Below, piece by piece: positions 21,426-63,710 of a stretch of 64,000 bases of DNA. The notes beneath the pieces were generated by a model. The model was given only the letters and a program-made list of their open reading frames with translations, made no database searches and was not told the DNA's origin. Made by a program: the position numbers and the translations under genes. Numbering within the stretch: position 1 is the stretch's first letter; each line of letters opens with the position of its first letter. Source of the DNA: Paraescarpia echinospica (taxonomy: Eukaryota > Annelida > Polychaeta > Sabellida > Siboglinidae); NCBI GenBank assembly GCA_020002185.1, contig CM034534.1:31659573-31723572 (forward strand), in the 5' to 3' direction.

Positions 21426-21447
21426 TAAGTTAGAATATGAGCGGCGT

Positions 21448-22910: not shown

Positions 22911-22939
22911 AGAAAAAAATAAAACTACAAAAAACTTAA

Positions 22940-31137: not shown

Positions 31138-31170
31138 GCAAATGCTAAAACAAAATCTAAACTAAAAACC

Positions 31171-34653: not shown

Positions 34654-34693
34654 ACCTTTTTCATAGCGCTTGCTTCACGCACCGATGTACAAG

Positions 34694-34813: not shown

Positions 34814-35200
34814 AATTCAAACATAAAAATAACTCCATCTGCTTAATTCGCGTGTGTTATTGTATTAGGGTTAGGACAGCCGTTTCCGAGTATTTGGAAG
34901 CCACCTTAGACCTACGTAATGTTCCGTATTGCATAGCTGCTTTGATTCCACATCATCAAGGATCAAAGATCGGACCGCCATTACGTACATATAGAATCCC
35001 TGGGAACATGAGTTAATTTTCGATGTACTACTGCAATAAATTAAGTCTTTCACTGGGGATTAATCATAATTAATAGACGCTGATCGTTTGCGAATCTCCA
35101 TAGTGACAATTTTTTAGAACGCACAAGCATTTCAAAGATAATCTCCATGCCAGTTCGAAATCGACGGGTACTATGTTTGCTTCACGCACCGAAGTACAAG

Positions 35201-35238
35201 TACTCTGGTTTCTCTTCAGCCCACGCATAAATCTTTCG
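35201..35238 (+). pseudogene. U5 snRNA 5' half, split by LINE A copy 2
   Basis: TACTCTGGTTTCTCTTCAG to AAATCTTTCG, then an abrupt switch to the LINE 5' end AATTGTTGGAGTG. The upstream spacer is the deleted short type and lacks the candidate PSE. Confidence 0.92.
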
Positions 35239-35280
35239 AATTGTTGGAGTGTTGCAGGTATTACAAGGTGTAGCAAGTGA

Positions 35281-35444
35281 ATGGTGACGATGGCGGAATC
35301 GTCAGGTCTCGGACAAGATTGGGCATCGGTGAAGAAGAGATCACTAATTCTGTCAGGACCACGTGAAGGTAATTTTTACTTTCGAGAAGATTTCTTTGCG
35401 TCTTTGCAAACAATTCTTGGTAGTGTCAAAGATAATGTGTTGTC
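35281..35444 (+). pseudogene. LINE A copy 2 ORF1, N-terminal piece
   Basis: MVTMAESSGLGQDWASVKKR to about residue 54 (SVKDNVLS), cut by the palindromic element. The start ATG lies 43 bases into the LINE; a second ATG (MAESSG) follows three codons later. The frame resumes at 45163 with FGPLSKNTEWHIVLKTE. Confidence 0.85.
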
Positions 35445-36257
35445 AGTAGTAAAGGAGGTTAAGTACCGGGGATGTTGGATTCGGAGTGAAGCAAAAGCAA
35501 AGTACCCGGATGTAGGTCAAGGTCAAAGGTCAATGTCAAGTACCCGGATGTAGGTCAAGGTCAAAGGTCAAGTGACCAGGATGTAGATCAAGGTCACGTG
35601 GCGCCCATATCGGAATTTTTCGGAACTAAAATAGCTCCCCTGGCGGATAGTTGGTGAACTAAAATATTTCCCGCCAAAACAAAAGTAGCGCCCCTGACGG
35701 ATAGTCGGTGAACTGAAATATTTCCCACCAAAACAAAAATAGCGCCCCTGGCGGATAGTCGGTGAACAAAAATATTTCCCGCCAAAACTAGATAGCGCCA
35801 CCTAGCGAAATTTCTCGGAACTAAAATAGCACGCCACCTAGCGGATTTTTGGGGAATTAAAATAGGTTGACCCGCAGCGTCCCTAGCGGATTTTTTCCCG
35901 GAAACAACTATTCAAGTGGTGCCACCTGACGGACAAATTGTAAACTAAATGTGCGAGTACTTCCCAATTTCGTGCATCTTAGTTGACCATTAGCGCCCCC
36001 TGGCGGATTTTTTTGTACTAAAGTAGGTTGACCCGCAGCGCCCCTATCGGAATTTTTCGGGACTAATTATACAAGTGGTGCCATCTGACGGACAAGTTGT
36101 GAAGTAAATGTAGGAGTACTGCAAATATTCGTGTCTCTTGCACGCTTGCGTGCAATAGAGTCCCCTGACGGATACATCACGAACTACAAACATCATCCCC
36201 TAGTGGACAAATGTTCGTTCGGCACGACCACGTGACCTTTATGTTCTGTCGAACTGT

Positions 36258-36265
36258 TATAAAAG
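36258..36265 (+). promoter_or_regulatory. TATA box of the arm-encoded small gene (left arm)
   Basis: TATAAAAG lies 45 bases before the ATG at 36311, with a TCATT initiator-like word about 30 bases downstream. The mirrored box CTTTTATA is at 44388-44395. Confidence 0.6.
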
Positions 36266-36310
36266 ACCTGCGTCTGTTTTTTGTGGTCATTATATCTTAC
36301 ATTTTGGAAG

Positions 36311-37098
36311 ATGAACAACATGACTAGTGATGCCGTCCGACAAGGGATTTTGCTACCGAAGGCGCAGCCTTCTCCGGCTACGGGACCACTCGACCTCTCG
36401 ACCCCAACAATCAACCCGGACCAACAACCAACGACCAGTTCAACGACCAGTCCGACGACCAGTTTGACGACCAGTTCGCCGATCAAACCAATTTCGTCTC
36501 TGTCATCAGCTCCGGCAATCAACCCAACCATCAACCTGACATCGTCACCTCCGACGAAGCGTCAGAAGCTGTTGTCTCGTTATACTTGCTGTATGTGTGG
36601 CAGTACCGTCAAGTATAAAGGGAATCGGTCCGCTCATGTGAAGCAGGGCTGCTGTCAAAGGAAGCAAGATAAACAGCGGCGACGTAAAGAACAACTTGAA
36701 CAACAGCTTGAAGAACAACTTGAAGAGATAACAGTAAGCTTCAATTTTTCATAGTGTTCAAATGGTATTCATGCTATTTTGTTAGAACATTTTCAAAAGA
36801 CCATAATATTATATTTTTTCTTATATATATCAGGTGAACATTCATTACTAAGCTCATCTCGTTACTGTTTCAGCGACAAGAAAAGGCATCCTCAAATCAC
36901 ACATCACGTCCATGAACTCAGACCAATTAGATGGTGAAAGACTGTTTGAGCGTTTTGTTAGACGCAGGTGTGAAGCTATCCGATGTGACAGTCGAACAGT
37001 TGTGTAATATCAATACATGGTTGCAAGAATCTGTTTCGAAACAGTGGCGAAACACTATGAAACATATGGTTCTTGCAGTTATGGAGCGTGACATGTAA
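36311..37098 (+). CDS. Small arm gene with C2HC zinc finger and coiled coil (left copy)
   Basis: Exon 1 36311-36733 encodes 141 residues: a Ser/Thr/Pro-rich half with TTS-TSP repeats, a basic KRQK, then a C-x2-C-x12-H-x4-C finger (YTCCMCGSTVKYKGNRSAH followed by VKQGC) and a Gln/Glu/Arg-rich helix (KEQLEQQLEEQLEE). A donor GTAAGC follows in phase 0. A 55-residue frame (36931-37098, starting MVKDCLSVLL) can be joined in phase if CCAATTAG is the acceptor; the stronger acceptor CTGTTTCAG at 36873 would instead add 13 residues and stop. AATAAA is at 37119. The translated exon 1 is identical in the other arm. The family is not recognised; DNA binding is possible from the finger and basic region. 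Confidence 0.55.
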
Positions 37099-37118
37099 AT
37101 ACGTTTGTGTTGTTCACG

Positions 37119-37124
37119 AATAAA
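37119..37124 (+). terminator. Poly(A) signal of the left-arm small gene
   Basis: AATAAA 21 bases after the TAA at 37096-37098; mirrored as TTTATT at 43529-43534. Confidence 0.55.
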
Positions 37125-37204
37125 CTGTGCAAACCTCATCTTGTATCTTTTTCATAGTGTAATGCAAAGCATATGTTGGAAACCTTACTAATAGTCTTAC
37201 CCTT

Positions 37205-37868
37205 CACAAGTATGTCTGTGTAGTTCAGTAGAGATGATAGCCACTTATGCCTGTGTAGTTCAGTAGAGATGATAGCCACTTATGTCTGTGTAGTTCAGTA
37301 CAGATATGTTAACCACTCATGTCTGTGTAGTTCAGTACAGAGATGTTAATGTACTCAGACCAACTAGTGGTGCAAACGAAACACTATGCTTTGACCAACA
37401 CACGGCACGAATCGGACTCAGACCAACTAGTTGCGTAAACGAAACAGAAACTTAACCGATTACGCTGCACAAATTGAACTCAGACCAACTAGTTGCGTAA
37501 ACGAAACAGAAACTTAACCGATTACGCTGCACGAATTGAACTCAGACCAACTAGTGGTGCAAACGAAACACTATGCTTTGACCAACACACGACACGAATC
37601 GAACTCAGATCAACTAGGGGCGTAAACGAAACAGAAACTTAACCGATTACGCTGCACGAATTGAACTCAGACCAACTAGTTGGACAAACGAAACACTATT
37701 CTTTGACCAACACATGTCACAAATTGAACTCAGATCAACTAGTTACACAAACGAAACACTATGCTTTGACCAACACGCTGAACGAATCGAACATTGAACT
37801 CAGACCAACTAGTTGTGCAAACGAAACACTATGCTTTGACCAACACGTGTCACGAATTGGACTTAAGT
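37205..37868 (+). repeat. 36-bp and 63-bp minisatellites in the left arm
   Basis: Four units around TGTCTGTGTAGTTCAGTA-GAGATGATAGCCACTTA are followed by about eight units built on AACTCAGACCAACTAGT, CAAACGAAACACTATGC and TTTGACCAACACG; a variant unit has AACTTAACCGATTACGCTGC. They are mirrored at 42781-43450. Confidence 0.9.
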
Positions 37869-37930
37869 GGTGGTGGTGGTGTGTGTGTGTGTGTGTGTGT
37901 GTGTGTGGTGGTGGTGGTGGTGGTGGTGGT

Positions 37931-37968
<38 letters not shown>

Positions 37969-38072
37969 GTGGTGGTGGTGGTGGTGTTGTGTGTGTGTGT
38001 GTGTGTGTGTGTGGTGGTGGTGGTGGTGGTGTTGTGTGTGTGTGCGTGTGTGGTGGTGGTGGTGGTGGTGGT

Positions 38073-38105
<33 letters not shown>

Positions 38106-38278
38106 TGGTGGTGGTGGTGTGTGTGTGTGTGTGTGTGTGTGGTGGTGGTGGTGGTGGTGGTGGTGTGTGTGTGTGTGGTGGTGGTGGTGGTGTGTGTGTG
38201 TGTGTGTGTGGTGGTGGTGGTGTTGTGTGTGTGTGCGTGTGTGTGGTGGTGGTGGTGGTGTGTGTGTGTGTGTGTGTG
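37869..38278 (+). repeat. Compound (GT)n / (GGT)n microsatellite
   Basis: Blocks of pure GT of 10-35 bp alternate about ten times with blocks of GGT of 12-27 bp. The mirrored right-arm copy (42416-42780) instead has one long pure AC run of about 110 bp followed by shorter alternating blocks. Confidence 0.97.
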
Positions 38279-38762
38279 ACTACTCCATCGTCGACACACT
38301 TCCGCGAATGTTAGAACTGTAGAGTCAGCCATTACAATCACATGACTTGAGGTGTGACGGAACTTCTAGCGTAGCGCTTCACGTTTATAAATACGCGGGT
38401 AACCAATTCACTAGTCGGAACTTATACTCAGACCGACGAGTTCCAAAAGTTGCGCAAACGAAACACTATGCTTTGACCAACACGTGTCACGAATTGGACT
38501 TAGATCAACTAGTTGTACAAACGAAACACTATGCTTTGACCAACACGTGTCACGAATTGGACTTAGATCAACTAGTTGGACAAACGAAACACTATGCTTT
38601 GACCAACACGTGTCACGAATTGAACTCAGACCAACTAGTTGCACTAACGAAACACTATGCTTTGACCAACACGTGTCACGAAAACGAAACACTGCTTTGA
38701 CCAAAAAAGTTGGGGTTAACCTCGCGAAAATTTAATGTGTCACGAATTGAACTTAGATCAAC

Positions 38763-39954
38763 TAGGCACATCACACGAGACTATGGCCGAGATATGTCAC
38801 GAGACTTCGGATGCACGTCACACGAGAGTACCGACGAGACAAGAGACGAGACTATGACCGATATATGTCACGAGACTACGGATGACACATCACACGAGAC
38901 TACGGATGACACATCACACGAGATTACGGACGAGATATCACACGAGAATACCGACGAGACAAGAGACGAGACTATGACCGAGATATGTCACGAGACTACG
39001 GATGACACATCACACGAGAGTACCGACGAGACAAGAGACGAGACTATGACCGAGATATGTCACGAGACTACGGATGACACGAGACTACGGATGACACATC
39101 ACACGAGAGTACCGACGAGACAAGAGACGAGACTATGACCGAGATATGTCACGAGACTACGGATGACACGAGACTACGGATGACACATCACACGAGAGTA
39201 CCGACGAGACAATGTCCGAGATATATCACGAGACTACGGATGACACATCACACGAGACTACGGATGACACATCACACGAGACTACGGATGACACGTCACA
39301 CGAGAGTACCGACGAGACAAGAGACGAGACTATGACCGAGATATGTCACGAGACTACGGATGACACGAGACTACGGATGACACATCACACGAGAGTACCG
39401 ACGAGACAATGTCCGAGATATATCACGAGACTACGGATGACACATCACACGAGACTACGGATGACACATCACACGAGACTACGGATGACACGTCACACGA
39501 GAGTACCGACGAGACAAGAGACGAGACTATGACCGAGATATACCACGAGACTACGGATGTCACATCACACGAGACTACGGATGTCACATCACACGAGACT
39601 ACGGATGTCACACCACACGAGACTACGGATGCCACATCACACGAGAGTACTGACGAGACAAGAGACGAGACTATGTCCGAGATATGTCACGAGACTATGG
39701 CCGAAATATGTCACGAGACTATGACCGAGATATGTCACGAGACTATGGCCGAGACTACGGATGACACATCACACGAGAGTACGGACGAGACAAGAGATAT
39801 GCTACGAGACTACGGATGACACATCACACGAGACTACGGATGACACATCACACGAGACTTCGTATGCCAAGTCACACGAGAGTACCGACGAGACAAGATA
39901 CGAGACTATGACCGAGATATGTCACGAGACTATGGCCGAGATATGTCACGAGAC
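38763..39954 (+). repeat. 24-bp-based minisatellite in the palindrome core
   Basis: The unit GAGACTACGGATGACACATC plus ACAC alternates with variants containing GAGTACCGACGAGACAAGAG and ATGACCGAGATATGTCACGA. Larger blocks of about 200 bp are duplicated (compare 39137-39330 with 39334-39527). One frame is open and reads ETTDDTSH repeats, but I regard it as satellite. It runs into the N gap. Confidence 0.93.
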
Positions 39955-40954
39955 NNNNNNNNNNNNNNNNNNNNNNNNNNNNNNNNNNNNNNNNNNNNNN
40001 NNNNNNNNNNNNNNNNNNNNNNNNNNNNNNNNNNNNNNNNNNNNNNNNNNNNNNNNNNNNNNNNNNNNNNNNNNNNNNNNNNNNNNNNNNNNNNNNNNNN
40101 NNNNNNNNNNNNNNNNNNNNNNNNNNNNNNNNNNNNNNNNNNNNNNNNNNNNNNNNNNNNNNNNNNNNNNNNNNNNNNNNNNNNNNNNNNNNNNNNNNNN
40201 NNNNNNNNNNNNNNNNNNNNNNNNNNNNNNNNNNNNNNNNNNNNNNNNNNNNNNNNNNNNNNNNNNNNNNNNNNNNNNNNNNNNNNNNNNNNNNNNNNNN
40301 NNNNNNNNNNNNNNNNNNNNNNNNNNNNNNNNNNNNNNNNNNNNNNNNNNNNNNNNNNNNNNNNNNNNNNNNNNNNNNNNNNNNNNNNNNNNNNNNNNNN
40401 NNNNNNNNNNNNNNNNNNNNNNNNNNNNNNNNNNNNNNNNNNNNNNNNNNNNNNNNNNNNNNNNNNNNNNNNNNNNNNNNNNNNNNNNNNNNNNNNNNNN
40501 NNNNNNNNNNNNNNNNNNNNNNNNNNNNNNNNNNNNNNNNNNNNNNNNNNNNNNNNNNNNNNNNNNNNNNNNNNNNNNNNNNNNNNNNNNNNNNNNNNNN
40601 NNNNNNNNNNNNNNNNNNNNNNNNNNNNNNNNNNNNNNNNNNNNNNNNNNNNNNNNNNNNNNNNNNNNNNNNNNNNNNNNNNNNNNNNNNNNNNNNNNNN
40701 NNNNNNNNNNNNNNNNNNNNNNNNNNNNNNNNNNNNNNNNNNNNNNNNNNNNNNNNNNNNNNNNNNNNNNNNNNNNNNNNNNNNNNNNNNNNNNNNNNNN
40801 NNNNNNNNNNNNNNNNNNNNNNNNNNNNNNNNNNNNNNNNNNNNNNNNNNNNNNNNNNNNNNNNNNNNNNNNNNNNNNNNNNNNNNNNNNNNNNNNNNNN
40901 NNNNNNNNNNNNNNNNNNNNNNNNNNNNNNNNNNNNNNNNNNNNNNNNNNNNNN
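39955..40954. other. Assembly gap, 1000 N
   Basis: Exactly 1000 N, so probably a placeholder of unknown true length. It lies inside a tandem repeat in the palindrome core; genes of the element could be missing. Confidence 0.99.
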
Positions 40955-40962
40955 TGGTTTCC

Positions 40963-41945
40963 GGCGCCACTCAACGGACACCAATGTAATTAGTCAGAGT
41001 ATAGCCATCTATCGAACATGATAGTTCTCTATTCGTTGACACACATATTCGTTGAGAATAGCGGAAGCGTAGAGGCCGCCATGTCAGGTCGCCATGACAT
41101 TCAAATAACTTCCGGTACTACGTTACTTCCGGCGTAGCATCCCTAGTGGAGGCCGCCATGACAGTCAAGTGACTTCCGGTACCACGTCACTTCCGGCGTA
41201 GAGACACCTAGTGGATAATCGGAGTACCACGTCACACACGACCATAGCAAGCGAATTTGAAAACTGCTACGATCGAAAACGACTATGTCAATAACATGTA
41301 AGGACAACCACCTGACAGGACTTCATTCAATGAGGTGCCAAACATCACATACCTTCATGTCAAGAGACGATCATTTGTTCGGATTCACGTCCAACGAGGC
41401 GACCATAGGACTCGTATGAGGTATCGCTTCTTTTAATGGAAAACATATGTATATGAAGCAGCCGTCTTTTCAACGTAACAATTCCATATTTTCAAATAGT
41501 GCGAGCGACCAGATACGATACGATCTTCTCGAGAGTCGAAAAAGGAAAGACCAGAATCGTCGGAAGCACGGTATATACACTAGTTTTCGGCGTGATCTCA
41601 TTTGCATAATCAATCAGACCGAACGTACATCACGTGACTTCCCTTAACACAAAAACTGTGCACGTTCATGAGACAGGCGACATCTGATGGCCCCAACGGA
41701 TAGCAATGTAACTACTCAGAATAACGCCAACTACCGACCATGATAGATCTCTATTCGTTGACACACTTCCGGGAATACCGGAAGCGTAGAGGCCGCCATG
41801 ACAGTCAAGTAACTTCCGGTGCGACGTCACTTCCGACGTGTCGTCCCTAGTAGAGGCTGCCATGACAGTCAAGTAACTTCCGGTACGACGTTACTTCCGG
41901 TGTAGCGCCCCCTAGCGGATAATCAGAGTACTATGTCACATGGTG
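40963..41945. repeat. Two direct repeats of about 270 bp rich in ACTTCCGG motifs
   Basis: 40963-41245 and 41690-41945 share the order: ACGGA-AGCAATGTAA, CCATGATAG-TCTCTATTCG, GGAAGCGTAGAGGCCGCCATG, ACAGTCAAGTAACTTCCGGT and CCTAGTGGATAATC. Within each, the block CCGCCATGACAGTCAAGT is itself repeated. Sequence between them (41246-41689) shows no convincing gene. Confidence 0.8.
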
Positions 41946-41965
41946 GCGCCATCTAGCGGTTAAAA

Positions 41966-42156
41966 ATATATAATTAGGTTAGCTAGAGAAAAAAAAGTTG
42001 GGGTTAACCTCGCGAAAATTTAATGTTTTTGTCCCTCTGGGACAAAAACAGAAAATTTTCAGAAAATTTATGCAACAACCACTTTAGTGGTTGTTGTTAA
42101 CATTTTCGCGAGTTTAACCCCAACTTTTTTTTCTCTAGCTAACCTAATTATATATT
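41966..42156. mobile_element. Hairpin MITE of about 190 bp at the inner edge of the right arm
   Basis: The ends are inverted: TAATTAGGTTAGCTAGAGA with AAAAAAAAGTTGGGGTTAA at left, and the exact complement at right. The centre has CAACAACCACT...AGTGGTTGTTG and GTCCCTCTGGGAC hairpins. TATA lies on both sides. A 35-bp piece of it (AAAAAAGTTGGGGTTAACCT...) also occurs at 38702-38737 inside the left minisatellite. Confidence 0.75.
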
Positions 42157-42160
42157 TAGT

Positions 42161-45156
<2,996 letters not shown>

Positions 45157-45162
45157 GTTGTC

Positions 45163-46444
45163 CTTTGGGCCTCTGTCTAAGAATACGGAATGGCATATCG
45201 TGCTGAAGACAGAGGAGGGGAAAAACAAGTTGCTGTCTGCCGGCCAGCTTAAAGATAAGGGTGTGGCTTTCTGGGTGCTGTCGGCAGACAAGAGCCAATT
45301 CAAGATGCGTGTGCACTGGGCACCACCATACTTGCCCAGTGAGTCCATTGTTAACAAACTGGAACAGTATGGGAAAGTTCAGTCGTTAGTGTTTGAGAAG
45401 TCGGTTGCAAAGGGGTTTGAGGGGGTCTGTACGGGAGTTCGAAGTGTTGTAATGACGGGGGATAAGGAAAAGTTACCACATATTGTCCCCTTCGTCAGTG
45501 ACCGCACAGGAGAAAAGTGTGAGGTGCTGTTGACCGTCACGGGTCGGAAGCCACTGTGTCTGCGTTGCAGGAAGGAAGGGCACTATCGCCGGGAGTGTAA
45601 AACCCCGTACTGCAGACACCACGGTCAGTATGGTCACGCCACGGAAGACTGTTCGGCCTAGGTGTCATACGCAAGAGCACTGAGGGGGCAGACAGGTGAG
45701 GAACAATTGCATGACATGGATGAGGAGACGGCTGTAGAGCAGACGGAAGACGTGACAGATAAGACGGTGACAACGGAGATGACGAAGGAAATGACGACGG
45801 TGGCGGCGGCGACGGTGGAGATTACGGCGGCAACGACAGCTGCGACGGTGACAACCGTGGCCGCAGAGGGGTCGTCGGAGGTAGCGACGACGGCGATGTC
45901 AGTGGTGGAGGTGACGCCGGAAGTGATGTCGGAAGTGACGTCGGAGGTGACGTCGGAGGTGACGTCGGAGGAGAAGACGACGGCGACGTCGGAGGAGACT
46001 ACGAAGGTGACGTCAGAGGCGGAGGCAGAGGTGATGTCATCGGGGATTTCGGTGATGTCATCAGAGGTAATGATCATGTCTGAGATGGTGACTATGGACA
46101 GAGACGACTCTGTGACGGAGGTCTATGAGGATTATGAGGGGGGGGAGACAGAGGAGAAGTCCTTGGTGTCGGACCGCGCTTCGACGTCGGATGACATGTT
46201 TTCCGAATCGGAGGATGTGGAGTCTGACGATGAGGAGCGGTCCCAGCCGTGGAAAACTATGACAAGACGTAAAAGTGCTCAGAAACGGAAGAGAGGGGAG
46301 ATGGCTGCAAAGTCAGAGGACTCTTCCCCACCTTCCCCGGCCTCACCCCCACATGGTAGGCTGATTATTGTGGAAGAGTCCAATTCGGACTCTGAGAAAA
46401 GTCAAACTAAAAAGAAATGTGCTGCTAGCAGCAAACCTATATGA
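45163..46444 (+). pseudogene. LINE A copy 2 ORF1, main piece, one in-frame stop
   Basis: It resumes at FGPLSKNTEWHIVLKTE after the insert. The RRM-like region continues to FEKSVAKGFEGVCTGVRSV; knuckles CLRCRKEGHYRREC and YCRHHGQYGHATEDC follow. TAG at 45659-45661 replaces a glutamate codon found in copy 3. After it comes an acidic Thr/Ser/Val region with imperfect VTSE repeats (about 45890-46020) and a basic tail ending KKCAASSKPI. ORF1 binds the LINE RNA in this family. Confidence 0.85.
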
Positions 46445-46471
46445 GATGTGAAATTTGTTCTTTATAGTTAA

Positions 46472-49400
46472 ATGGCTGCCAAATTAAATTTTGCCAGTAT
46501 CAATTGTAGAGGTTTACGGGACTGGCGTAAAAGAGAATTTATTATAAAATATTTAAGAGAAAAACAAATTGATATATGTTACCTTCAAGAAACACATTGT
46601 AATACCAAATTTATTGGGAATTCTTGGAGACATGAATGGGGTGGAAACTGTTATTGGTCTTTCGGCAATAATAGGACGCGAGGGGTAGGGATTTGGTTTA
46701 GACCTAGATTGTCCTTTAAAATTGTTTCCCTCTCTATAGATAATGACGGTAGAATATTATTCTTATTAGTGAAATTTAGCGAACAAGTTATAAGATTAGC
46801 AGTTATATTTGCTCCAGTAATTAATATAGACCGAAATAATTTCTTTTCTAATTTTGTAAATCATATACAAGGTCAATATCCTATAATTCTGGGAGACGAT
46901 TTTAACTGTGTATTAGACAGTGAATTTGATAAAAGTGGAGGAATTGATAGTTACGGTGAAACAAAAAGTACAGTTCTTAAATCTGTTTGTGATGATTTTA
47001 ATTTAGTTGACCCATACCGGAAATTATATCCCGGCAAGAAAGAATATACTTGGAGGAATTCATTAAATACAATTTTTTGTAGACTTGATCGATTTTATGT
47101 ATCCAACTCTCTCTTACGAGACACAGTTTCTGTAGAACACATTGATATTCCTTATGTTATCACTGATCACAGTTTAGTTAGTATGGTTATTAAAACGGAT
47201 GTTTCTGATAAGCCTACATTAGGCCCAAATTATTGGAAATGTAATGTAAAGATTTTAAAGGATGAACACTTCCAAGCTGACTTTGCTGTCCAGTGGGAAA
47301 CATTGGCGGAAGAGACTGATCAAAGCTCTGACTGGTGGGAAAAGTGCAAAGGCAAGTTTAAACAGTTACTCATTGCACATTCTGTGAGATTAGGAAGAAT
47401 TTACAAAGAAAAACAAAAGATGGCAAATTGGAATTTTCAAAACATAACACAGCTAACTCGGGTCACGAACCCACCAGATAATATAGAAGATCAAATATCT
47501 GACGCTCGTGAGGTTATTAATAATGTGTATACTGAAAAAGCAGAAGGATCAAAAATTAGAGCCAAAGAACAACATCTTGAATTGGATGAGAAACCAACCA
47601 GATTTTTTTACGAAAAGAAAAACAATCTGCTGAGTCAAAATTCATTAAGAAGCTGACTATGGAAACAGGGGAGGTTATTACAGCAAATGAAGAAATTCAA
47701 GAAGAATGTCTAAATTTCTACAAAGATCTTTACAAATGTGAACCGATTGATGATTCTTTAAATGATTTTTTTTTAAAGATTTGCCGACAGTAAATGTTGA
47801 AACAGCAGTACAATATGAAGGACCGATTACATTAGAAGAAATTAAGAATGCTTTGGGAAAGATGTCAAATTACAAAACTCCAGGATTAGATGGATTACCT
47901 AAAGAATTTTATACTTTTGCCATGGCGTATATTGGAGAGGCTTACACTAAATTACTGAATAGATGCTGGCAAGAGGAGAAGTTACCCTCTTCTCAAAGAC
48001 AAGGACTCAGAACTCTTATATGTAAAGATAAAGACAATCCTGATAAATTGAAGAACTGGAGGCCTATCTCGTTACTAAATGTTGATTATAAAATTCTTTC
48101 AAAAGTTCTAACAATGAGATTACGCATAATTTTAGGGGACATTGTTAATAGCGATCAAACTTGCTCTATCCCAGGTCGGACTATACAAGACAACGTCCAT
48201 TTGATACGGAATTTAATTGAATATACAAATAATAAAAATATGGCCGCTGCAATTATTTCCTTAGACCAGTCTAAGGCTTTTGATAGGGTTTCGCATGCAT
48301 ACTTGTTTAATGTACTACATGCGTTTGGTTTAGGACCAGAGTTTATATCTTTGGTTAAACTCTTATACACAGACATCTCTAGTCAAATTTTTGTAAATGG
48401 GTTTATTACCAATTCGTTTCCAGTAAAAAGAAGTGTACGACAAGGTTGCAGCTTATCTCCTTTGCTACATGTTCTATGTATGGAACCATTTGCACACCAT
48501 GTTCGCCGTGACCCTATGATTAAAGGAATTCCTCTACCTAGAACGGTGGAACAAGTAAAAATTTCACAATATGCAGATGACACGAATTTATTTGTCACAG
48601 ATAATAGTTCAGTTAGAAAAATACTCATGGTAGTAGAATTATTTGAATTAGCATCAGGAGCCAAACTTAATAAACAGAAAACATTTGGAACATGGTTGGG
48701 AAAATGGAGAATCAGACAAGATCAGCCTTTTGGTTTAAATTGGTCCACCGAAGTGAAGAAATTATATGGGGTTTACCTTGGATCTGAATCTTCAGAAATG
48801 ACTAACTGGATAAAAATCCTTTCACGATTTCAAAAGACTATTAATTTGTTTTGTCAAAGAGATTTGTCATTTAAAGGCAGGAGCATAATTTTGCACACCG
48901 TTATTTGCAACTCCATATGGTATATTGGTAGTTTACTCGTAATGCCTGAGAATGTGGAGAAACAATTGAATAAGATGCTGTTTTCTTTCCTATGGAATGA
49001 TAAGACGGAGGTAATTAAGAGAGAGACATTGCAAAACAGCTTTAAAAATGGAGGTTTGAATATAGTTAATATTCGAGTCAAATTGAATGCGTTATTAATC
49101 AAACATGTTATACAATTAGTTAAAGGTAGCGAAGCTAAGTGGACTTTTTTTGCAAGTTACTGGATAGGAATGCAACTCCGGAAATATAATTTTTCTCTAG
49201 CCGCTCTAACGAGACCACACTCGGAAACTGCGCCGAAATTCTATTGTAATGTTATGAATGTTTTTCGGATGTTCCTCAGAGAATGTCCTTCCTTTTGTGG
49301 AACTGAATCTGTCACTACGAAATTTATATATATCAAATTGTTTAAGGTTAACCCACCAAAAGTGCTGTCAATTTTTCCAACGATTGATTTCAGTGTTATC

Positions 49401-49961
49401 TGGGAGAATATACAATGTTCGTTTGTAGATCCTCGCTATAGAGATGTGGCATGGCGAATAGCGCATCAAGCGTTAATGACCCAATACAAATTGTATACTT
49501 TTAATCTTAGCAGAAATTCTAAATGCAACCTTTGTAACAAGGCAATTGAATCTTTTTCTCATTTATTTTGTGAGTGTTCCATGGTATCAAGTTGTTGGGC
49601 GTATGTTGAATTTGTATTGAAAGAATTAACTGGTTGCGCTGTCTGCATAACTCAGAAAACTGTATTATTTAACGTGTTTGATAAACATGGAACTTCTCAC
49701 TTTAATGAACTACTTTTATTATTGGTTAATTTGCTCAAGTCTTGTATTTGGGCCAAGCGCAATGACGTAAAATAGAATAAGAAACATGTGTCCGCTGTAG
49801 GTATAAAAGGTCTCTTTATTAGAATGTTACAGTCCCGAATTAAAGCAGATTATCAACGCTTTGACCAAGCTAAATTTAAGAAGTATTGGTGCAGGAATAA
49901 TTCGATAGTACAAGTGGATGGAGACAAAATCAAGATTTTGTTGAGCCTCCATCCACCTTGA
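46472..49961 (+). pseudogene. LINE A copy 2 ORF2, endonuclease-RT, frameshifted
   Basis: The start is ATG at 46472 (MAAKLNFASINCRGLRDWRK). The endonuclease occupies residues 1-230 (YLQETHCN, DDFNCVLD, where copy 3 has GDFNCVLD, TDHSLVSM). A frameshift near 47650 and another near 47780 lie in the linker. RT motifs: PGLDGLPKEFY, LLNVDYKILSKVL, SLDQSKAFDRVSH, RQGCSLSPLL and QYADDTNLF. The C-terminal C-x2-C-x8-H-x4-C motif (CNLCNKAIESFSHLFCEC) is intact. A TAG at 49773 cuts the last 60 residues. Confidence 0.9.
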
Positions 49962-50072
49962 ATTGTTATCATTTAATATGCATGTATATGTATGTATGTA
50001 TGTGTGTGTGTATGTGTATGTATATATATATGTATGTGTGTATGTATGTATATATATATATGTATGTGTGCG

Positions 50073-50115
<43 letters not shown>

Positions 50116-51879
50116 CTGTGTTTTGCTTCATTTAAATTTATTTAATTATTTAGAATCTAATTAGAAATTATCGGTTCCTCATGAGGTTAATGTTTATATA
50201 TTTTCTATATCGATGTATAAAAGAGATTAGGGTACAATTATTATATGTGTTGCTGTAATGCCTATAGATTGAAGTGTATAAGAAACTCACCAGTATTACT
50301 ATTATTCACTTGGTTTCATAAGTTTGTAATGTTTTGATAATGAAATGTAATGCAGTTGGATTTATAATTGTATTTAGTCAGGGTGAAAGAAATAACGCAT
50401 AGAAAATGCATAATAATGGTTCCCTGTATATTTAGTACGCTCGAACATTTACATGGGTGACAGGCTTGCGGCACAGTAGTGCTTAGCACCGATCGGGGAT
50501 AGCCTGTGAAGCGCCTTCGACAAAATAGTGCCCAATTAGATACTGAACGGGACAGTTCGTGAAGCATCTTCGACACAGTAGTGCCTCGTACCGATCGGGG
50601 ATATTTCGTGAAGCGCCTTCAACAACACAGTTGTGCCCCGTTACATACTGAACGAGACAGTTAGGGAAGCGCCTTCGATACAGTCGTGCCGTGTTACATA
50701 CTGAAAGAGACAGTTCGTGAAGTGCCTTCCACACAGTTGTACACTCTTACGTAATGACCGCGGGTGCTCTTGAAATGCGTCAGTGTTTGATGCTACCCCA
50801 GCCCCATCTTTCCGGACAACATGTTTTCACCCCGGACTTGCGCCTTAGAGTGCCCGTTACGAGTCAGCGAGCGCAGTCTGACCAGAACTGTAAACGCAAA
50901 CAGTGTTTACAATGTATCTTGTATATCATATAGAGTGATGTGCATACAGTGAACGTTAATTTACTTTAAATTGACACTTGATCACATTATATAGTGACAG
51001 TGAATTTACACATTTATTCACATATTTCTTGTCATATTATAGCACCTGTTTTCATGAAGTAACACTCAATCAAGTCTGTTGACTATTGCTCCAATTGGAG
51101 ATCGTTACGAACATTGGACGAATATTACCACGATTGAATTGTTGACACTATTATTTTGTAGTATCTTACAATGGACATTACTTGTTGTTTACAGAAGGGC
51201 GATACATATATGAAATAAGGCCTGTTGTGTAGAAGACATTAGGGATATGCCTTTTGAAAAATATTTCTGCAATGTTTTTGGTCTACAGGAATATTACCTG
51301 TAATGTACGTATATATATACTTGCGTGGGCATGGTGCGTACGCTTGTGTTTTATATATACACCAAAATTACAATTTTCTGCATGGTAGGATACATCCTGT
51401 AACCTGTATCATAACCACTTCATGTCATTGTGTTGGGACGGGTGTGGATAGACCCCTATAGGGGGTTTTGCCCCCACCGGTTTCAACACTCTGCCTACTG
51501 GCGCGGCTGTAAAAAGCCCGTAAGCTACATCGTTCAATAATGTTTTCATCCTCTTCATCATTGTAAGAATCTATGGGGAGGTAAACTCCTGCAAGTCCGC
51601 ATACCACTGCAGGTAAAGGATAAACATATACCGTGCAGAGATTTGTTTCAAAATTAATGATATTTCTAGTAAATTAGTTGTATATATAACAGGCGATTCA
51701 TATAGTTTTTTTAAGCCCGATTGGGAGCATACGTCCATTTCAAAACGTCAACAACCGGGTAAAACCAGGTGATTGTTCACAGAATATTTTCTCCGTTAGT
51801 TTGTTCAATTATTGGTACAACTTTTATACTGTATATATATGTACAATAATGTGAATAAACATTTAAAGAAAAAACAATT
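49962..51879 (+). other. LINE A copy 2 3' UTR
   Basis: It contains a (TA)n/(TG)n microsatellite (49976-50110), a block of imperfect 65-70-bp repeats built on ACTGAACGGGACAGTTCGTG and AAGCGCCTTCGACACAGT (50470-50745), a conserved middle, the CCCCTATAGGGG element (about 51450) and the end GAATAAACATTTAAAG plus A-run. No frame is convincing. Confidence 0.85.
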
Positions 51880-51955
51880 ACGAAAGATTTCCGTGGAGAG
51901 GAACATTACAATGAGTCTATAGACTAATTTTTCAAACCCTGACTTCGGTTAGGGT
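51877..51955 (+). pseudogene. U5 snRNA 3' half, split by LINE A copy 2
   Basis: It starts at TTACGAAAGATTTCCG (T-to-G change in the loop I flank) and ends at the 3' hairpin. The Sm region reads AATTTTTCA. Confidence 0.9.
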
Positions 51956-52342
51956 AATTAAAACACAAAAATAACTCCACCTGCTTAATTCGCGTGTGTT
52001 ATTGTATTAGGGTTAGGACAGCCGTTTCCGAGTATTTGGAAGCCACCTTAGACCTACGTAATGTTCCGTATTGCATAGCTGCCTTGATTCCACATCATCA
52101 AGGATCAAAGATCGGACCGCCATTACGTACATATAGAATCCCTGGGAACATGAGTTAATTTTCGATGTACTACTGCAATAAATTAAGTCTTTCACTGGGG
52201 ATTAATCATAATTAATAGACGCTGATCGTTTGCAAATCTCCATAGTGACAATTTTTTAGAACGCACAAGCATTTCAAAGATAATCTCCATGCCAGTTCGA
52301 AATCGACGGGTACTATGTTTGCTTCACGCACCGAAGTACAAG

Positions 52343-52380
52343 TACTCTGGTTTCTCTTCAGCCCACGCATAAATCTTTCG
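52343..52380 (+). pseudogene. U5 snRNA 5' half, split by LINE A copy 3
   Basis: Same 38 bases and same LINE junction (TTTCG then AATTGTTGG) as at 35201-35238; the short upstream spacer is also the same, so the two loci may be copies of one event or independent insertions at one site. Confidence 0.92.
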
Positions 52381-52422
52381 AATTGTTGGAGTGTTGCAGG
52401 TATTACAAGGTGTAGCAAGTGA

Positions 52423-53877
52423 ATGGTGACGATGGCGGAATCGTCAGGTCTCGACAAGATTGGGCATCGGTGAAGAAGAGATCACTAATTCTGTCAGGAC
52501 CACGTGAAGGTAATTTTTACTTTCGAGAAGATTTCTTTGCGTCTTTGCAAACAATTCTTGGTAGTGTCAAAGATAATGTGTTGTCCTTTGGGCCTCTGTC
52601 TAAGAATACGGAATGGCATATCGTGCTGAAGACAGAGGAGGGGGAAAAACAAGTTGCTGTTTGCCGGCCAGCTTAAAGTTAAGGGTGTGGCTTTCTGGGT
52701 GCGGTCGGCAGACAAGAGCCAATTCAAGGTGCGTGTGCACTGGGCACCACCATACTTGCCCAGTGAGTCCATTGTTAACAATCTGGAACAGTATGGGAAA
52801 GTTCAGTCGTTAGTGTTTGAGAAGTCGGTTGCAAAGGGGTTTGAGTGGGTCTCTACGGGAGTTCGAAGTGTTATAATGACGGGGGATAAGGAAAAGTTAC
52901 CACATATTGTCCCCTTCGTCAGTGACCGCACAGGAGAAAAGTGTGAGGTGCTGTTGACCGTCACGGGTCGGAAGCCACTGTGTCTGCGTTGCAGGAAGGA
53001 AGGGCACTATCGCTGGGACTGTAAAACCCCGTACTGCAGACACCACGGTCAGTATGGTCACGCCACGGAAGACTGTTCGGCGGAGGTGTCATACGCAAGA
53101 GCACTGAAGGGGCAGACAGGTGAGGAACAATTGCATGACATGGATGAGGAGACGGCTGTAGAGCAGACGGAAGATGTAACAGATAAGACGGTGACAACGG
53201 AGGTGACGGTGACAACGGACGTGACGAAGGAAAAGTCGACGGTGGCGGTGACGACGGTAGAGATTTCGGCGACAAAGACGGCTGCTATAATGACAACAGT
53301 GGCCGCGGAGGGGACGTCGGAGGTAGAGACGTCGGCGATGTCAGAAGCGGAGGTGACGTCGGAAATGACGTCGGAAGTGACGTCGGAGGGAATGTCGGAG
53401 GCGACGTCGGAGGAGACGACGACGACGGAATCGGAGGAGACGACGACGGAGACGTCAGAGGCGGAGGCAGAGGCGACGTCGTCGGGGACTTTGGTGACGT
53501 CGTCAGAGGTAATGGTCATATCTGAGATGGTGTCTATGGACAGAGACGACAATAAGGATCACGAGGGGGGGGGAAGACAGAGGAGAAGTCCTCGGTGTTG
53601 GGCCGCGCTTCGGCGTCGGACGACATGTTCTCCGAATCGGAGGATATGGAGTCTGACGGTGAGGGGCGGTCCCAGTCGTGGAAAACAATGTCAAAACGAA
53701 AAAGTGCGCAGAAACGGAAGAGGGGGGAGATGGCTGCAAAGTCAGAGGACTCTCCCCCACCTTCCCCGGCTTCACCCCCCCCCACATGGTAGGCTGATTA
53801 TTGTGGAGGAATCCAATTCAGATTCTGAGAAAAATCAGACACACAAAAAATGTGCTGCTAGCAGCAAACCTGTATAA
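52423..53877 (+). pseudogene. LINE A copy 3 ORF1 with small frameshifts
   Basis: Compared with copy 2, one G is lost near 52455 and one gained in a G-run near 52641, which shifts the frame within the RRM-like region. From 52654 the frame is open through the knuckles (CLRCRKEGHYRWDC, with W for R and D for E; YCRHHGQYGHATEDC), then a long TSE/TTE-rich acidic part, with another run-length change at about 53560-53570. The start at ATG 52423 is inferred from copy 2. The product is the LINE RNA-binding protein. Confidence 0.85.
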
Positions 53878-53904
53878 AATGTGAAATTTGTTCTTTTTAC
53901 CTAA

Positions 53905-56900
53905 ATGACTGCCAAATTAAATTTTGCCAGTATAAATTGTAGAGGTTTACGGGACTGGCGTAAAAGAGAATTTATTATAAAATATTTAAGAGAGAAACAA
54001 ATTGATATATGTTACCTTCAAGAAACACATTGTAATGGAAAATTTATTGGGAATTCTTGGAGACATGAATGGGGTGGGAACTGTTATTGGTCTTTCGGCA
54101 ATAATAGGACGCGAGGGGTAGGGATTTGGTTTAGATCTGGTTTGTCTTTTAAAACTGTTTCCGTCTCTAGAGATAATGACGGTAGAATATTATCCTTATT
54201 AGTGAAATTTGGCGAACAAATTATAAGATTAGCAGTTATATATGCTCCAGTAATTAATATAGATCGAAATAATTTCTTTTCTACTTTTGCAAATCATATA
54301 CAAGGTCAATATCCTATAATTCTGGGAGGAGATTTTAACTGTGTATTAGACAGTGAATTTGATAAAAGTGGAGGAATTGATAGTTACGGTGAAACAAGAA
54401 GTAGAGTTCTTAAATCTGTTTGTGATGACTTTAATTTAGTTGACCCATTCCGGAGATTATATCCCGGGAAGAAAGAATATACTTGGAGGAATTCGTTAAA
54501 TACAATTTTTTGTAGACTTGATCGATTTTATGTATCCAACTCTCTCTTACAAGACACAGTTTCTGTAGAACACATTGATATTCCTTATGTTATCACTGAT
54601 CACAGTTTAGTTAGAATGGTTATTAAAATGGATGTTTCTGATAAGCCAACATTTGGGCCAAATTATTGGAAATGTAATGTAAAGATTTTAAAGAATGAAC
54701 ACTTCCAAGCTGACTTTGCTGTCCTGTGGGAAACATTGGCAGAAGAAACTGACCAAAGCTCTGACTGGTGGGAAAAGTGCAAAGGTGAGTTTAAACAGTT
54801 AATTATTGCACATTCTGTGAGATTAGGAAGAATTTATAAAGAAAAACAAAAGATGGCAAATTGGAATTTTCAAAATTTAACAAAGCTAATTCATGACACG
54901 AACCCACCAGATAACATAGAAGATCAAATATCTGACGCTCGTGAGGTTATTAATAATTTGTATACTAAAAAAGCAGAAGGGTCAAAAATTAGAGCCAAAG
55001 TGCAACATCTTGAATTGGATGAGAAACCAACCAGATATTGTCTACGAAAGGAAAAACAATCTGCTGAGTCTAAATTCATTAAGAAGCTGACTAGGGAAAC
55101 AGGGGAGGTAATTACAGCAAATGAAGAAATTAAAGAAGAATGTTTAAATTTCTACAAAGACCTTTATAAATCTGAACCGATTGATGATTCTTTAAATGAT
55201 TATTTTTTGAAAGATTTGCCAACAGTAAATATTTAAACAACAGTACAATGTGAAGGATCGATTACATTAGAAGAAATTAAGAATGCTTTGGGAAAGATGT
55301 CAAATTATAAAACTCCAGGATTAGATGGGTTACCTAAAGAATTTTATATTTTTGCCATGCCATATATTGGAGAGGCTTACACTAAATTACTGAATAGATG
55401 CTGGCAAGAGGAGAAGTTACCCTCTTCTCAGAGACAAGGACTCATAACTCTTATATGTAAAGATAAAGACAATCCTGATAAATTGAAGAACTGGAGGCCT
55501 ATCTCTTTACTAAATGTTGACTATAAAATTCTTTCAAAAGTTCTAACAATGCGATTACGGATAATTTTAGGGGACATTGTTAGTAGTGATCAAACTTGTT
55601 CTATCCCAGGTCGGACTATACAAGACAATGTTCACCTGATACGGAATTTAATTGAATATACAAATAATAAAAATATGGCCGCTGCAATTATTTCCTTAGA
55701 CCAGTCTAAGGCTTTTGATAGGGTTTCGCATGCATACTTGTTTAATGTAATACATGCATTTGGTTTAGGACCAGAGTTTATATGTTTAGTTAAACTCTTA
55801 TACACAGACATCTCTAGTCAAATTTTGGTAAATGGGTTCATTACCAATTCGTTTCCAGTAAAAAGAAGTGTGCGACAAGGTTGTAGCTTATCTCCTCTAC
55901 TATATGTTCTATGTATGGAACCATTTGCACACCGTGTTCGAAGTGACCCTATGATTAAAGGAATTCCTCTACCTGGAACGGTGGAACAAGTAAAAATTTC
56001 ACAATATGCAGATGACACGAATTTATTTGTCACAGATAATAGTTCAGTTAGGAAAATACTTATGGTAGTAGAATTATTTGAATTAGCATCAGGAGCCAAA
56101 CTTAATAAACAGAAAACATTTGGAACATGGTTGGGAAAATGGAGAAGCAGACAAGATCAGCCTTTTGGTTTAAATTGGTCCACCGAAGTGAAGAAATTAT
56201 GTGGGGTTTACCTTGGATCTGAATCTTCAGAAAAGACTAATTGGATAAAAATCCTTTCAAGATTTCAAAAGAATATTAATTTGTTTTGTCAAAGAGATTT
56301 GTCATTTAAAGGCAGGAGCATAATTTTGCACACCGTTATTTGCAACTCCATATGGTATATTGGTAGTTTACTCGTAATGCCTGAGAATGTGGAGAAACAA
56401 TTGAATAAGATACTGTTTTCTTTCCTATGGAATAATAAGACGGAGTTAATTAAGAGAGAGACATTCCAAAACAGCTTTAAAAATGGAGGTTTGAATATAG
56501 TTAATATACGAGTCAAATTGAATGCGTTATTAATTAAACATGTTTTACAACTAGTTAAAGGTAGCGAAGCTAAGTGGACTTTTTTTGCAAGTTACTGGAT
56601 AGGAATGCAACTCCGAAAATACAATTCTTCTCTAGCCGCTCTAACGAGGCCACACTCGGAAACTGTGCCGAAATTCTATTGTAATGTTATGAATGCTTTT
56701 CGGATGTTCCTCAGAGAATGTCCGTCCTTTTGTGGAACTGAATCTGTCACTACGAAATTTATATATATCAAATTGTTTAAGGTTCACCCACCAAAAGTGG
56801 TGTCGATGTTTCCAACGATTGATTTCAGTGTTACCTGGGTAAATATACAATGTTCGTTTGTAGATCCTCGCTATAGAGATGTGGCATGGCGAATAGCGCA

Positions 56901-57396
56901 TCATGCGTTAATGACCCAATACAAATTGTATACTTTTAATCTTAGCAGAAATTCTAAATGCAACCTTTGTAACAAGACAATTGAATCCTTTTCTCATTTA
57001 TTTTGTGAGTGTTCCATGGTAACAAGTTGTTGGGCGTATGTTGAATTTGTATTGAAAGAATTAACTGGTTGCGCTGTCTGCATAACTCAGAAAACTGTAT
57101 TATTTAACGTGTTTGATAAACATGGAACTTCTCACTTTAATGAACTACTTTTATTATTGGTTAATTTGCTCAAGTCTTGTATTTGGGCTAAGCGCAATGA
57201 CGTAAAATACAATAAGAAACATGTGTCCGCTGTAGGTATAAAAGGTCTCTTTATTAGAATGTTACAGTGCCGAATTAAAGCAGATTATCAACGCTTTGAC
57301 CAAGCTAAATTTAAGAAGTATTGGTGCAGGAATAATTCGATAGTACAAATGGATGGTGACAAAATCAAGATTTTGTTGCGCCTCCATCCACCTTGA
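53905..57396 (+). pseudogene. LINE A copy 3 ORF2, endonuclease-RT with a single stop codon
   Basis: 1163 codons from MTAKLNFASINCRGLRDWRK to LLRLHPP. The endonuclease is at residues 1-230 (YLQETHCN, GGDFNCVLD, DRFYVSN, TDHSL), a basic linker follows, then RT at about 460-760 (PGLDGLPKEFY, LLNVDYKILSKVL, SLDQSKAFDRVSH, RQGCSLSPLL, QYADDTNLF), thumb, and a C-terminal CCHC-like motif at about 1010-1030. Motif order and wording place it in the Tx1/L1 group. The only lesion seen is TAA at 55234-55236, where copy 2 has a glutamate codon. The enzyme nicks target DNA and copies the LINE RNA from the nick. Confidence 0.92.
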
Positions 57397-59383
57397 ATTG
57401 TTATCATTTAATATGTACGTGGATATGTATATGTGTATGTATATATATATATATGTATATGTATGTGTGTGTATGTATATACATATATTTACCTGTGTTT
57501 TGCTTGATTTAAAATTATTTAATTATTGAGCATCTAATTAGAAATTATCGGTTCCTCGTGAGGATAATGGTTATATATTTTCTATCTCGATGTATAAAGG
57601 AGATTAGTGTACAATTATTACGTGTGTTTCTGTAATGCCTACAGTTTGGAGTGTATAAGAAACTCACCAGTATTACTATTATTTACTTGGTTTCATAAGT
57701 TTGTAATGTTTTGATAATGATATGTAATGTAGTTGGATTATAATTGTATTTAGTCAGGGTGGAAGAAATACCGCATAGAAAATGCATAATAATGGTTCCC
57801 TGTATATTTAGTATGCTTGAACATTGACATGAGTGACAGGCTTTCGGCACAGTAGTGCTTAGTACCGATCGGGGATAGGTCGTGAAGCGCCTTCGACAAA
57901 ATCGTGCCCAGTTAGATACTGAACGGGACAGTTCGTGAAGCGTCTTCGACACAGTCGTGCTGTGTTACATACTGAACGAGACAGTTCGTGAAGCGCCTTC
58001 GACAAAATCGTGCCCAGTTAGATACTGAACGGGACAGTTCGTGAAGTGTCTTCAACACAGTCGTGCCTAGTACCGATCGAGGATATTTCGTGAAGTGCCT
58101 TCGACAAAACAGTTGTGCCTGTTACATACTGAACGGGGCAGTTCGTGAACCGCCTTCGATACAGTCGTGCCGTGTTATATACTGAACGGGACAGTTCGTG
58201 AAGCGACTTCGACACAGCCGTACACCGTTATGTAACGACCGTGGGTGCTCTTGAAGTGCGTCAGCGTTTGGAGACACCCCAGCCCTATCGTTCCGGACAA
58301 CATGTTTTCACCCCGGACAGCTCCTCGACAGACTCGCGCCTTAGAGTGCTCGTTACGCGTCAGCGAGCACAATCTGACCGGAACTGTCAACGCAAACAGT
58401 GTTTACAATGTATATTGTATATCATATAGAGTGATGTGCACACAGTGAACGTTAATTTACTATAATTTGACACTTGATCACATTATATAGTGACATGTGA
58501 ATTTACACATTTATTCACATATTTCCTGTCACATTATAGCACCAGGTTTCATGAAGTAACAATCAGTCAAGTATGTTGACTATTGCTCCAATTGGAGATC
58601 GTTATGAACATTGGATGAACATTACCACGATTGAATTGTAGACACTATTACTTCGTACTATCTTACAGTGGACATTACTTGTTGTTTACAGAAGGGCGAT
58701 ACATACATCATATAAGGCCTGTTGTGTTAGAAGCCATTAGGGATATGCTTTTTAAAGAATATTTCTGAAATGGTTTTGGTCTACAGGAATATCACCTGTT
58801 ATATACGCATATATATACATGCGTGGGCATGGTGCGTACGCTTGTGTTTTATATATACACAAAAATTACAATTTTCGGCGTGGTAGGATACATCCTGTAA
58901 CCTGTATCATAACCACCTCATATCATTGTGTTAGGGCAGGTGTGGGTAGACCCCTATAGGGGGGTTTGCCCCCACCGGTTCAGCACTCTGCCTACTGGCG
59001 CGGCCATAAAAAGCCCGTAAGCTACATCGTTCAATACTGTTTTCATCCTCTTCATCATTGTAAGGATATATGGGGAGGTAAACTCCTGCAAGTCCGCATA
59101 CCACTGCAGGTAAAGGATAAACATATACCGTGCCGAGATTTGTTTCAAAATTAATGATTTTTCTCGTAAATTAGTTGTAAATATAACAGGCGATTTATAT
59201 GGTTTGTAAGCCCGATTGGGAGCATACGTCCATTTCAAAAAGTCAACAACCGGGTAAAACCAGGTGATTGTACACAGCATATTTTCTTCGTTGGTTTTGT
59301 TCAATTATTGATACAACTTTTATTCTGTAAATATATGTACAATAATGTGAATAAACATTTAAAGAAAAAAAAAAAAAAAAATT
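57397..59383 (+). other. LINE A copy 3 3' UTR
   Basis: Same order as in copy 2: (TA/TG)n, imperfect repeats of the ACTGAACGGGACAGTTCGTG type (57850-58225, about one unit more than copy 2), the conserved middle, the CCCCTATAGGGG element (about 58948-59020) and GAATAAACATTTAAAG plus poly(A). Confidence 0.87.
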
Positions 59384-59458
59384 ACTAAAGATTTCCGTGG
59401 AGAGGAACATTACAATGAGTCTACAGACTAATTTTTCGAACCCTGACTCGGTTAGGGT
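59381..59458 (+). pseudogene. U5 snRNA 3' half, split by LINE A copy 3
   Basis: It starts TTACTAAAGATTTCCG, has an intact Sm site AATTTTTCG, and the 3' hairpin has lost one T in its TTCG loop. Confidence 0.9.
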
Positions 59459-61424: not shown

Positions 61425-61464
61425 ACCTTTTTCATAGCGCTTGCTTCACGCACCGAGATACAAG

Positions 61465-61584
61465 TACTCTGGTTTCTCTTCAGCCCACGCATAAATCTTT
61501 CGCCTTTTACTAAAGATTTCCGTGGAGAGGAACATTACAATGAGTCTATAGACTAATTTTTCGAACCCTGACTTCGGTTAGGGT
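61465..61584 (+). ncRNA. U5 spliceosomal snRNA gene, intact
   Basis: Same 120-base gene as at 34694; the Sm site is AATTTTTCG. Loop I GCCTTTTAC, the internal GTGGAGAGGAAC and the TTCG-capped 3' hairpin are unchanged. No insertion in this unit. Confidence 0.94.
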
Positions 61585-63550: not shown

Positions 63551-63590
63551 ACCTTTTTCATAGCGCTTGCTTCACGCACCGAGGTACAAG

Positions 63591-63710
63591 TACTCTGGTT
63601 TCTCTTCAGCCCACGCATAAATCTTTCGCCTTTTACTAAAGATTTCCGTGGAGAGGAACATTACAATGAGTCTATAGACTAATTTTTCGAACCCTGACTT
63701 CGGTTAGGGT
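63591..63710 (+). ncRNA. U5 spliceosomal snRNA gene, intact
   Basis: Identical in layout to the gene at 61465, exactly 2126 bp downstream. The unit continues past the window end. Confidence 0.94.

Follow-up and report, generated by a model that had tools for sequence, protein, structure and literature searches.

In the excerpts of the literature on which we draw, the mobile elements reported for small nuclear RNA (snRNA) genes by 2015 were only Keno and Utopia, both of U2, together with Dada-U1 and Dada-U6 (PMC4640811). The published position of Keno lies about 37 nucleotides (nt) into U2 (PMC6136364, PMC4640811), and the Dada DNA transposons target U1, U6, tRNA and 5S genes (PMC3706591, PMC8869645). 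Here, we analyse a 64,000-nt stretch of the genome of the annelid Paraescarpia echinospica (hereafter the window), which corresponds to C4:31659573-31723572 of a 1.08-Gb assembly (GCA_020002185.1, C4 being contig CM034534.1) and covers part of a tandem array of U5 snRNA genes. U5 is an RNA required for splicing, and its loop I, GCCTTTTAC (nt 39-47), holds exons. Within this array, U5 is split between nt 39 and 44 by a long interspersed nuclear element (LINE) of about 7 kb, called family A here, which encodes an apurinic/apyrimidinic (APE)-type endonuclease, a reverse transcriptase (RT) and a zf-RVT domain. Judging from the assembled sequence, family A is very probably a site-specific LINE whose sole target found in the genome is loop I of U5, and it would belong to a lineage that resides in U1, U2, U3 and U5 genes.

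The copy that displays this arrangement in full is A3. It is preceded by U5 nt 1-39 (52342-52380, 100% identical to intact U5), extends from 52381 to 59381, where an A-run terminates its 3′ end, and is followed by U5 nt 44-121 (59382-59458, 96-97% identical to intact U5); all U5 parts and LINE copies given for the window lie on the forward strand. Copy A2 is built in the same way, with U5 nt 1-39 at 35200-35238, the initial ~205 bp of the LINE at 35239-35443 (99.5% identical to A3), the remainder at 45157-51877 (93.8% identical to A3 across 4933 bp) and U5 nt 44-121 at 51878-51955, the latter opening a short spacer ahead of A3. The two parts of A2 are separated by an inverted-repeat (foldback) element (35444-45156, edges uncertain by a few bases) of ~9.7 kb that contains tandem repeats, some GT/CA-rich and some longer, as well as a 1-kb N gap. 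Copy A1 (15059-20755) is 5′-truncated, carries more indels and stops, and is followed by U5 nt 44-121 at 20756-20833. Beyond the window, A4 again consists of U5 nt 1-39 (C4:31732212-31732250), the LINE and U5 nt 43-121 (starting at 31739249), together C4:31732212-31739327, and is 96.5% identical to A3 over the initial 1253 bp and 98.4% over the following 5759. A further 5′ end, A5, is found at C4:31745827, with TCTTTCG of U5 and the tail of a different LINE, B2, ahead of it. The original prediction had proposed that A2 and A3 have one 5′ junction, that the three copies in the window have one 3′ junction and that nothing but CCTT is lost from loop I. All of this can be read in the sequence: A2 and A3 both join the LINE at U5 nt 39, U5 resumes at nt 44 directly after the A-rich tail in A1, A2 and A3, and the sole loss at A3 is CCTT (nt 40-43).

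In A3, the first ATG occurs at 52423, after 42 nt of LINE sequence, and an AATAAA signal at 59350-59355. The region of open reading frame (ORF) 1 (52423-53874) is broken in frame; CCHC-like cysteines were noted in it by eye, the open stretch 52630-53877 had no Pfam match, and the equivalent part of A2 gave a zf-CCHC_2 match under the Pfam cut-off. ORF2 (53905-57396) comprises the APE-type endonuclease (53905-55236, with a stop at its end) and the RT plus zf-RVT part (55237-57396), and its Pfam domains are PF03372 (APE-type, the EEP family), PF00078 (RVT_1) and PF13966 (zf-RVT). The 3′ untranslated region of the family carries 53-bp tandem repeats (57872-58221 in A3, 6.6 copies).

Is integration into loop I a property of the family or of a few copies in this array? 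We searched the whole 1.08-Gb genome with the first 240 bp and the last 201 bp of A3 as 5′ and 3′ probes, all genome-wide match counts, including those of Rfam U5, being lower bounds. The 5′ probe gave at least five matches, namely the 5′ ends of A2, A3, A4 and A5 and the continuation of A2 past the nested element, so that all four A-type 5′ ends found are at the U5 site. The 3′ probe gave at least 38 matches; the four at 92-100% identity are A1-A4 and the other 34 are at 74-88%. All four A-type 3′ ends are likewise at the U5 site, with U5 resuming at nt 44 in A1-A3 and at nt 43 in A4. Outside U5 the genome yielded no A-type end, in a search that covered the ends alone and did not seek fragments lacking both. 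Within a repeated gene, the ends found thus occupy a single nucleotide position, with one 3′ junction off by one base, and the possibility that most copies would lie outside U5, which was to speak against the original prediction, did not materialise; integration into loop I as a property of the family is upheld by the positions of the ends across the genome. When the 38 matches are sorted by their 3′ flank, five adjoin U5 (A1-A4 and another LINE, B1), seven U1, seven U2 (two of these with only ~30 nt of U2 behind) and two the U3 small nucleolar RNA (snoRNA); six, in the U1 region of C8, run into the ORF1-like start of a further LINE, and 11 were not assignable to U1, U2, U3 or U5. In this sorting Rfam was applied to 20 of the 30 loci cut out, and six of the 11 unplaced flanks (L052, L054, L056-L059) were compared by BLAST with the U1, U2 and U5 of this genome only, so other RNA genes could be missed among them.

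Whether the copies arose separately can be judged from their coding sequence. The ratio of nonsynonymous to synonymous substitution rates (dN/dS) in ORF2 is 0.286 for A2-A3, 0.276 for A2-A4 and 0.303 for A3-A4 (P for synonymous excess 3e-12, 1e-12 and 1e-4, respectively), and the truncated A1 gives 0.483 against A2, 0.417 against A3 and 0.402 against A4 (P = 1e-5, 1e-7 and 4e-8). Purifying selection is therefore apparent in all six pairs of A1-A4, which argues for copies from separate source RNAs, much of the divergence between them predating insertion and having arisen in working source elements. Tails and 3′ flanks also vary among the copies. It is dN/dS that indicates independent insertions at the site, as this is not demonstrable from the 5′ junctions alone.

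The rival with which the original prediction had itself reckoned is a single LINE insertion in a U5 gene that unequal crossing-over then copied along with the tandem array. In its favour, A2, A3 and A4 have a near-identical haplotype upstream, and the flank of A2 and A3 together with their first 205 bp is 98.7% identical, compared with 93.8% in the body. However, a dead insertion would show no purifying selection, the LINE bodies diverge more than the flanks (A2 and A3 resemble each other more closely in their spacers than in the LINE), tails differ, A4 resumes one base off at its 3′ junction and A5 has another 5′ flank. With dN/dS of 0.28-0.48 and all six pairs significant, a single amplified insertion is rejected, and we regard it as highly improbable; these comparisons of coding sequence show that the family A copies have separate origins and do not derive from one insertion through growth of the array. 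Hardly any probability attaches to the idea of a general LINE that landed in the array by chance, for which it can be said only that non-specific LINEs exist, whereas the end searches found no A-type end elsewhere in the assembled 1.08 Gb and the same nucleotide has been struck repeatedly. An artefact of assembly is very unlikely too: tandem arrays are difficult to assemble and the foldback within A2 contains the 1-kb N gap, but every copy has its own sequence and flanks, and the LINE 3′ terminus also sits on RNA genes at U1, U2 and U3 loci on other chromosomes.

More serious is the possibility that retrotransposition to U5 was genuine and that recombination among array units then spread some copies or 5′ flanks or made them uniform, a course of events to which we assign a probability only a little short of even. 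A short spacer variant (window 34736-35238 and 51878-52380; C4:31731664-31732250) was seen only upstream of LINE-bearing U5 units: it precedes the three A copies that retain U5 nt 1-39 and none of the seven intact array genes, all of which have the usual 120 bp upstream. A2 and A3, moreover, have one difference in their first 206 bp, below what their bodies would lead one to expect. On the other hand, A3 and A4 are 96-99.7% alike per 300-bp step, without the jump expected of a recent crossover. Several observations weigh against independent, site-specific insertion. The flanks upstream of A2, A3 and A4 have 0-1 base differences over 228 positions ending at U5 nt 39 and are without 1578 bp of the usual spacer, so array exchange may be the source of these 5′ junctions, only A5 having a distinct 5′ flank; owing to this common haplotype, the evidence from 5′ junctions amounts to two items, one from A2-A4 jointly and one from A5. 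The 5′ end of A1 is truncated and has no U5 flank, the 3′ junction of A4 is one T longer (TTTAC) and so one base off, and the 3′ end of A5 was not found. Furthermore, 17 of the 38 matches to the 3′ probe, all below 92% identity and outside family A, are the 11 with unassigned flanks and the six next to another LINE; the P values given above assume independent sites; and the basis of the analysis is the assembly of one species. As regards the 5′ junctions, then, the identity claimed by the original prediction holds and their independence does not: the explanation is either that a rare, short type of unit received the LINEs or that array units exchanged their 5′ flanks. Carriage of the short spacer within the LINE RNA was also considered and is not favoured, the flank of A2 and A3 having 1/239 differences compared with 6% in the bodies, and A5 lacking the spacer.

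The array itself is made of long units spaced 2125-2126 bp, and three intact U5 genes lie on the forward strand of the window, at 34693-34813 (Rfam RF00020, 95.5 bits), 61464-61584 and 63590-63710 (94.7 bits each). Past the window, four further intact genes are followed by A4 and then by A5. Across the genome, Rfam U5 was found in at least 13 places, that is, seven intact array genes, five intact dispersed genes and the partial unit at B1. Six of the 13 array units read are interrupted (A1, B1, A2, A3, A4 and A5 with B2). Other repeats in the window are an unrelated LINE in a U5 spacer (30499-33613), with a PHD finger in its upstream ORF, and a 35-bp satellite of 31 copies, 94% alike, at 1-1094.

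Families with the same 3′ terminus as family A are found in U1 genes (two sites), U2 genes (the Keno site) and U3 snoRNA genes. At C8:8.45-8.61 Mb, a cluster of related LINEs occupies two sites in U1 genes (around nt 26 and at nt 39-44); its members are L023, L024, L026-L028, L031, L032, L035, L036, L038, L040-L042 and L065, and six of the tails in this cluster adjoin the ORF1-like start of another LINE, as if by head-to-tail insertion. At C1:54083423-54083617 and C1:54120753-54120827 (L030 and L045), LINE 3′ ends are followed by U3 snoRNA (RF00012, 98.7 and 110.8 bits), so that the U3 gene is apparently a further RNA-gene target. A U2 cluster at C11:37.72-37.94 Mb (L029, L034, L046-L051, L053, L055) holds two distinct LINE lineages at nt 36/37. 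In the five U2 regions fetched, U2 from nt 36/37 stands behind the LINE in all five and U2 nt 1-45 ahead of it in three (L050, L051 and L053), and U2 copies have a target duplication of 9-10 bp. Two LINE ends resembling B1, L057 (C7:68369962) and L059 (C9:7904562), have one common 3′ flank on different chromosomes, which is either a segmental copy or another repeated target.

We built a tree of 133 sequences, consisting of copies from this genome and 120 database proteins, none of which is shown under a Tx1 name; the U1- and U3-resident copies are not in it, the one exception being B1 in so far as its 5′ end closely resembles a U1-array copy. In this tree A1-A4 form one group (support 1.0) whose sister is the database protein P0001 (1.0), 80% identical in RT; B1 and B2 with two copies on C7 and C9 come next (1.0), and all of these fall within a 36-member clade (1.0) that holds two separate groups of U2-resident elements of the same genome. 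IQ-TREE on 35 of the 133 sequences gave 100 for A, 100 for A with P0001 and B, and 99 for the clade in which both U2 groups fall. Its members L049-L051, L053 and L055 occupy U2 nt 36/37, and family A itself is in U5, not at Keno's U2 site. From clade membership and the U2 position published for Keno, we take the clade to be Keno-like and family A to have shifted to U5, the kinship with Tx1 and Keno being indirect, drawn through the U2-site elements of this genome and not through named Keno sequences. ORF2 does combine the APE-type endonuclease and RT by which the Tx1 clade is recognised. Among relatives found by protein search, one from Patella caerulea is 40% identical. A viral contig collection searched for the junction or for relatives yielded neither, and the 21-base junction pattern had two exact matches in a genome contig collection, both bacterial, without more U5 sequence and taken as chance. 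At the 5′ junction no self-cleaving ribozyme was matched by Rfam; up to E = 1 the window gave only U5 and, in low-complexity DNA, miRNA models.

A second family, B, suggests how targets may change. B1 is a chimera of U1 nt 3-37 (21391-21425, 94% identical to U1 of this genome and joined to U5-array spacer), the LINE itself (21426-28261, with RT pieces and 94.9% identity over 564 bp to the U1-array copy L065) and U5 nt 30-121 (28262-28353, the start being nt 30 or 33 because of an ambiguous A-run). Its 5′ side lacks some 1.46 kb of spacer along with U5 nt 1-29. B2, whose ORF2 protein is 79% identical to that of B1, stops at the same U5 position and is apparently 5′-truncated inside ORF1, joining spacer ~0.4 kb ahead of U5. 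Since B1 and B2 end at nt 30 (or 33), which is 11-14 nt upstream of the A site, there are two sites of insertion in U5. In the U1 array, L065 is a B-type LINE that starts behind U1 nt 1-37, and L041 is a B-type tail ~6.9 kb downstream, followed by U1 from nt 26; taken to be one copy, the two fit an arrangement of U1 1-37, LINE and U1 26-164 with a 12-bp duplication. B1 looks like an RNA that began at the U1 start, carried a U1 leader and was integrated at U5, i.e. a move from U1 to U5.

A possible mechanism for family A follows from the junctions. The APE-type endonuclease of ORF2 would nick the bottom strand between U5 nt 43 and 44, as the 3′ junctions suggest, and the polyadenylated LINE RNA would be reverse-transcribed from this nick (target-primed), a step to which the A-rich 3′ tails and common orientation point. 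The top strand would be cut at nt 39/40 with loss of CCTT, in keeping with the 5′ junctions. The new copy would then run in the U5 sense, placed 39 nt after the start of U5, and its RNA would probably come from the U5 promoter, with a U5 leader that could anneal to the next target. Use of the U5 promoter is proposed by analogy with B1, whose U1 nt 3-37 begin within about 2 nt of the U1 start, and the U5 sense, the 42 nt to the first ATG and the AATAAA accord with it. We consider it somewhat more likely than not that one LINE lineage radiated over U1 (two sites), U2, U3 and U5 (two sites) by means of the host snRNA promoter and a carried leader, with B1 as a frozen intermediate of a switch from U1 to U5.

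The way in which retrotransposons with a specific target come by it, or exchange it for another, is an open question, and elements of this kind are relevant to targeted insertion. Because related families in one genome differ in target and have a common 3′ terminus, comparing them offers a way to look for the region of the endonuclease that reads the target. B1 would allow a change of target to be dated and suggests that RNA begins at the snRNA start site, and the cousins in U1, U2 and U3 genes may reveal moves between essential RNA genes. With loop I destroyed by a parasite, and six of the 13 array units read broken, one may also ask how much loss of U5 genes a genome can tolerate. No LINE targeting U5, U1 or U3 is named in the excerpts of the open-access literature searched, Repbase and Dfam lying outside that search, and the excerpts of PMC3464664 and PMC10228655 that touch on U5 genes name no LINE within them. 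Within those same bounds, the suggestion that U5 might be an undescribed specificity stands. What is new is likely a U5 target for a known element type, plus a captured change of target.

How, then, does family A compare with the systems already described? The best full-length solved relative of ORF2 in the PDB is human LINE-1 ORF2p (E = 1e-122), which it matches from the endonuclease through RT. LINE-1 is not restricted to one gene. Dada and family A are alike in taking multicopy small-RNA genes as targets, but Dada has a DDE transposase and target-site duplications of 6-7 bp, whereas family A is an RT element, its ORF2 being an RT protein and not a DDE transposase. Utopia, a U2-specific non-LTR (long terminal repeat) retrotransposon, targets an snRNA gene as family A does; in the excerpt of PMC4640811 its endonuclease is restriction-like. 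That of family A is APE-type instead, which sets it apart from Utopia and from R2-like elements. Keno is a Tx1-type non-LTR retrotransposon of U2 that, like family A, has an APE-type endonuclease and inserts inside an snRNA gene; family A differs in residing in U5 and in losing 4 bp of its target, whereas the U2 copies of its own genome duplicate 9-10 bp.

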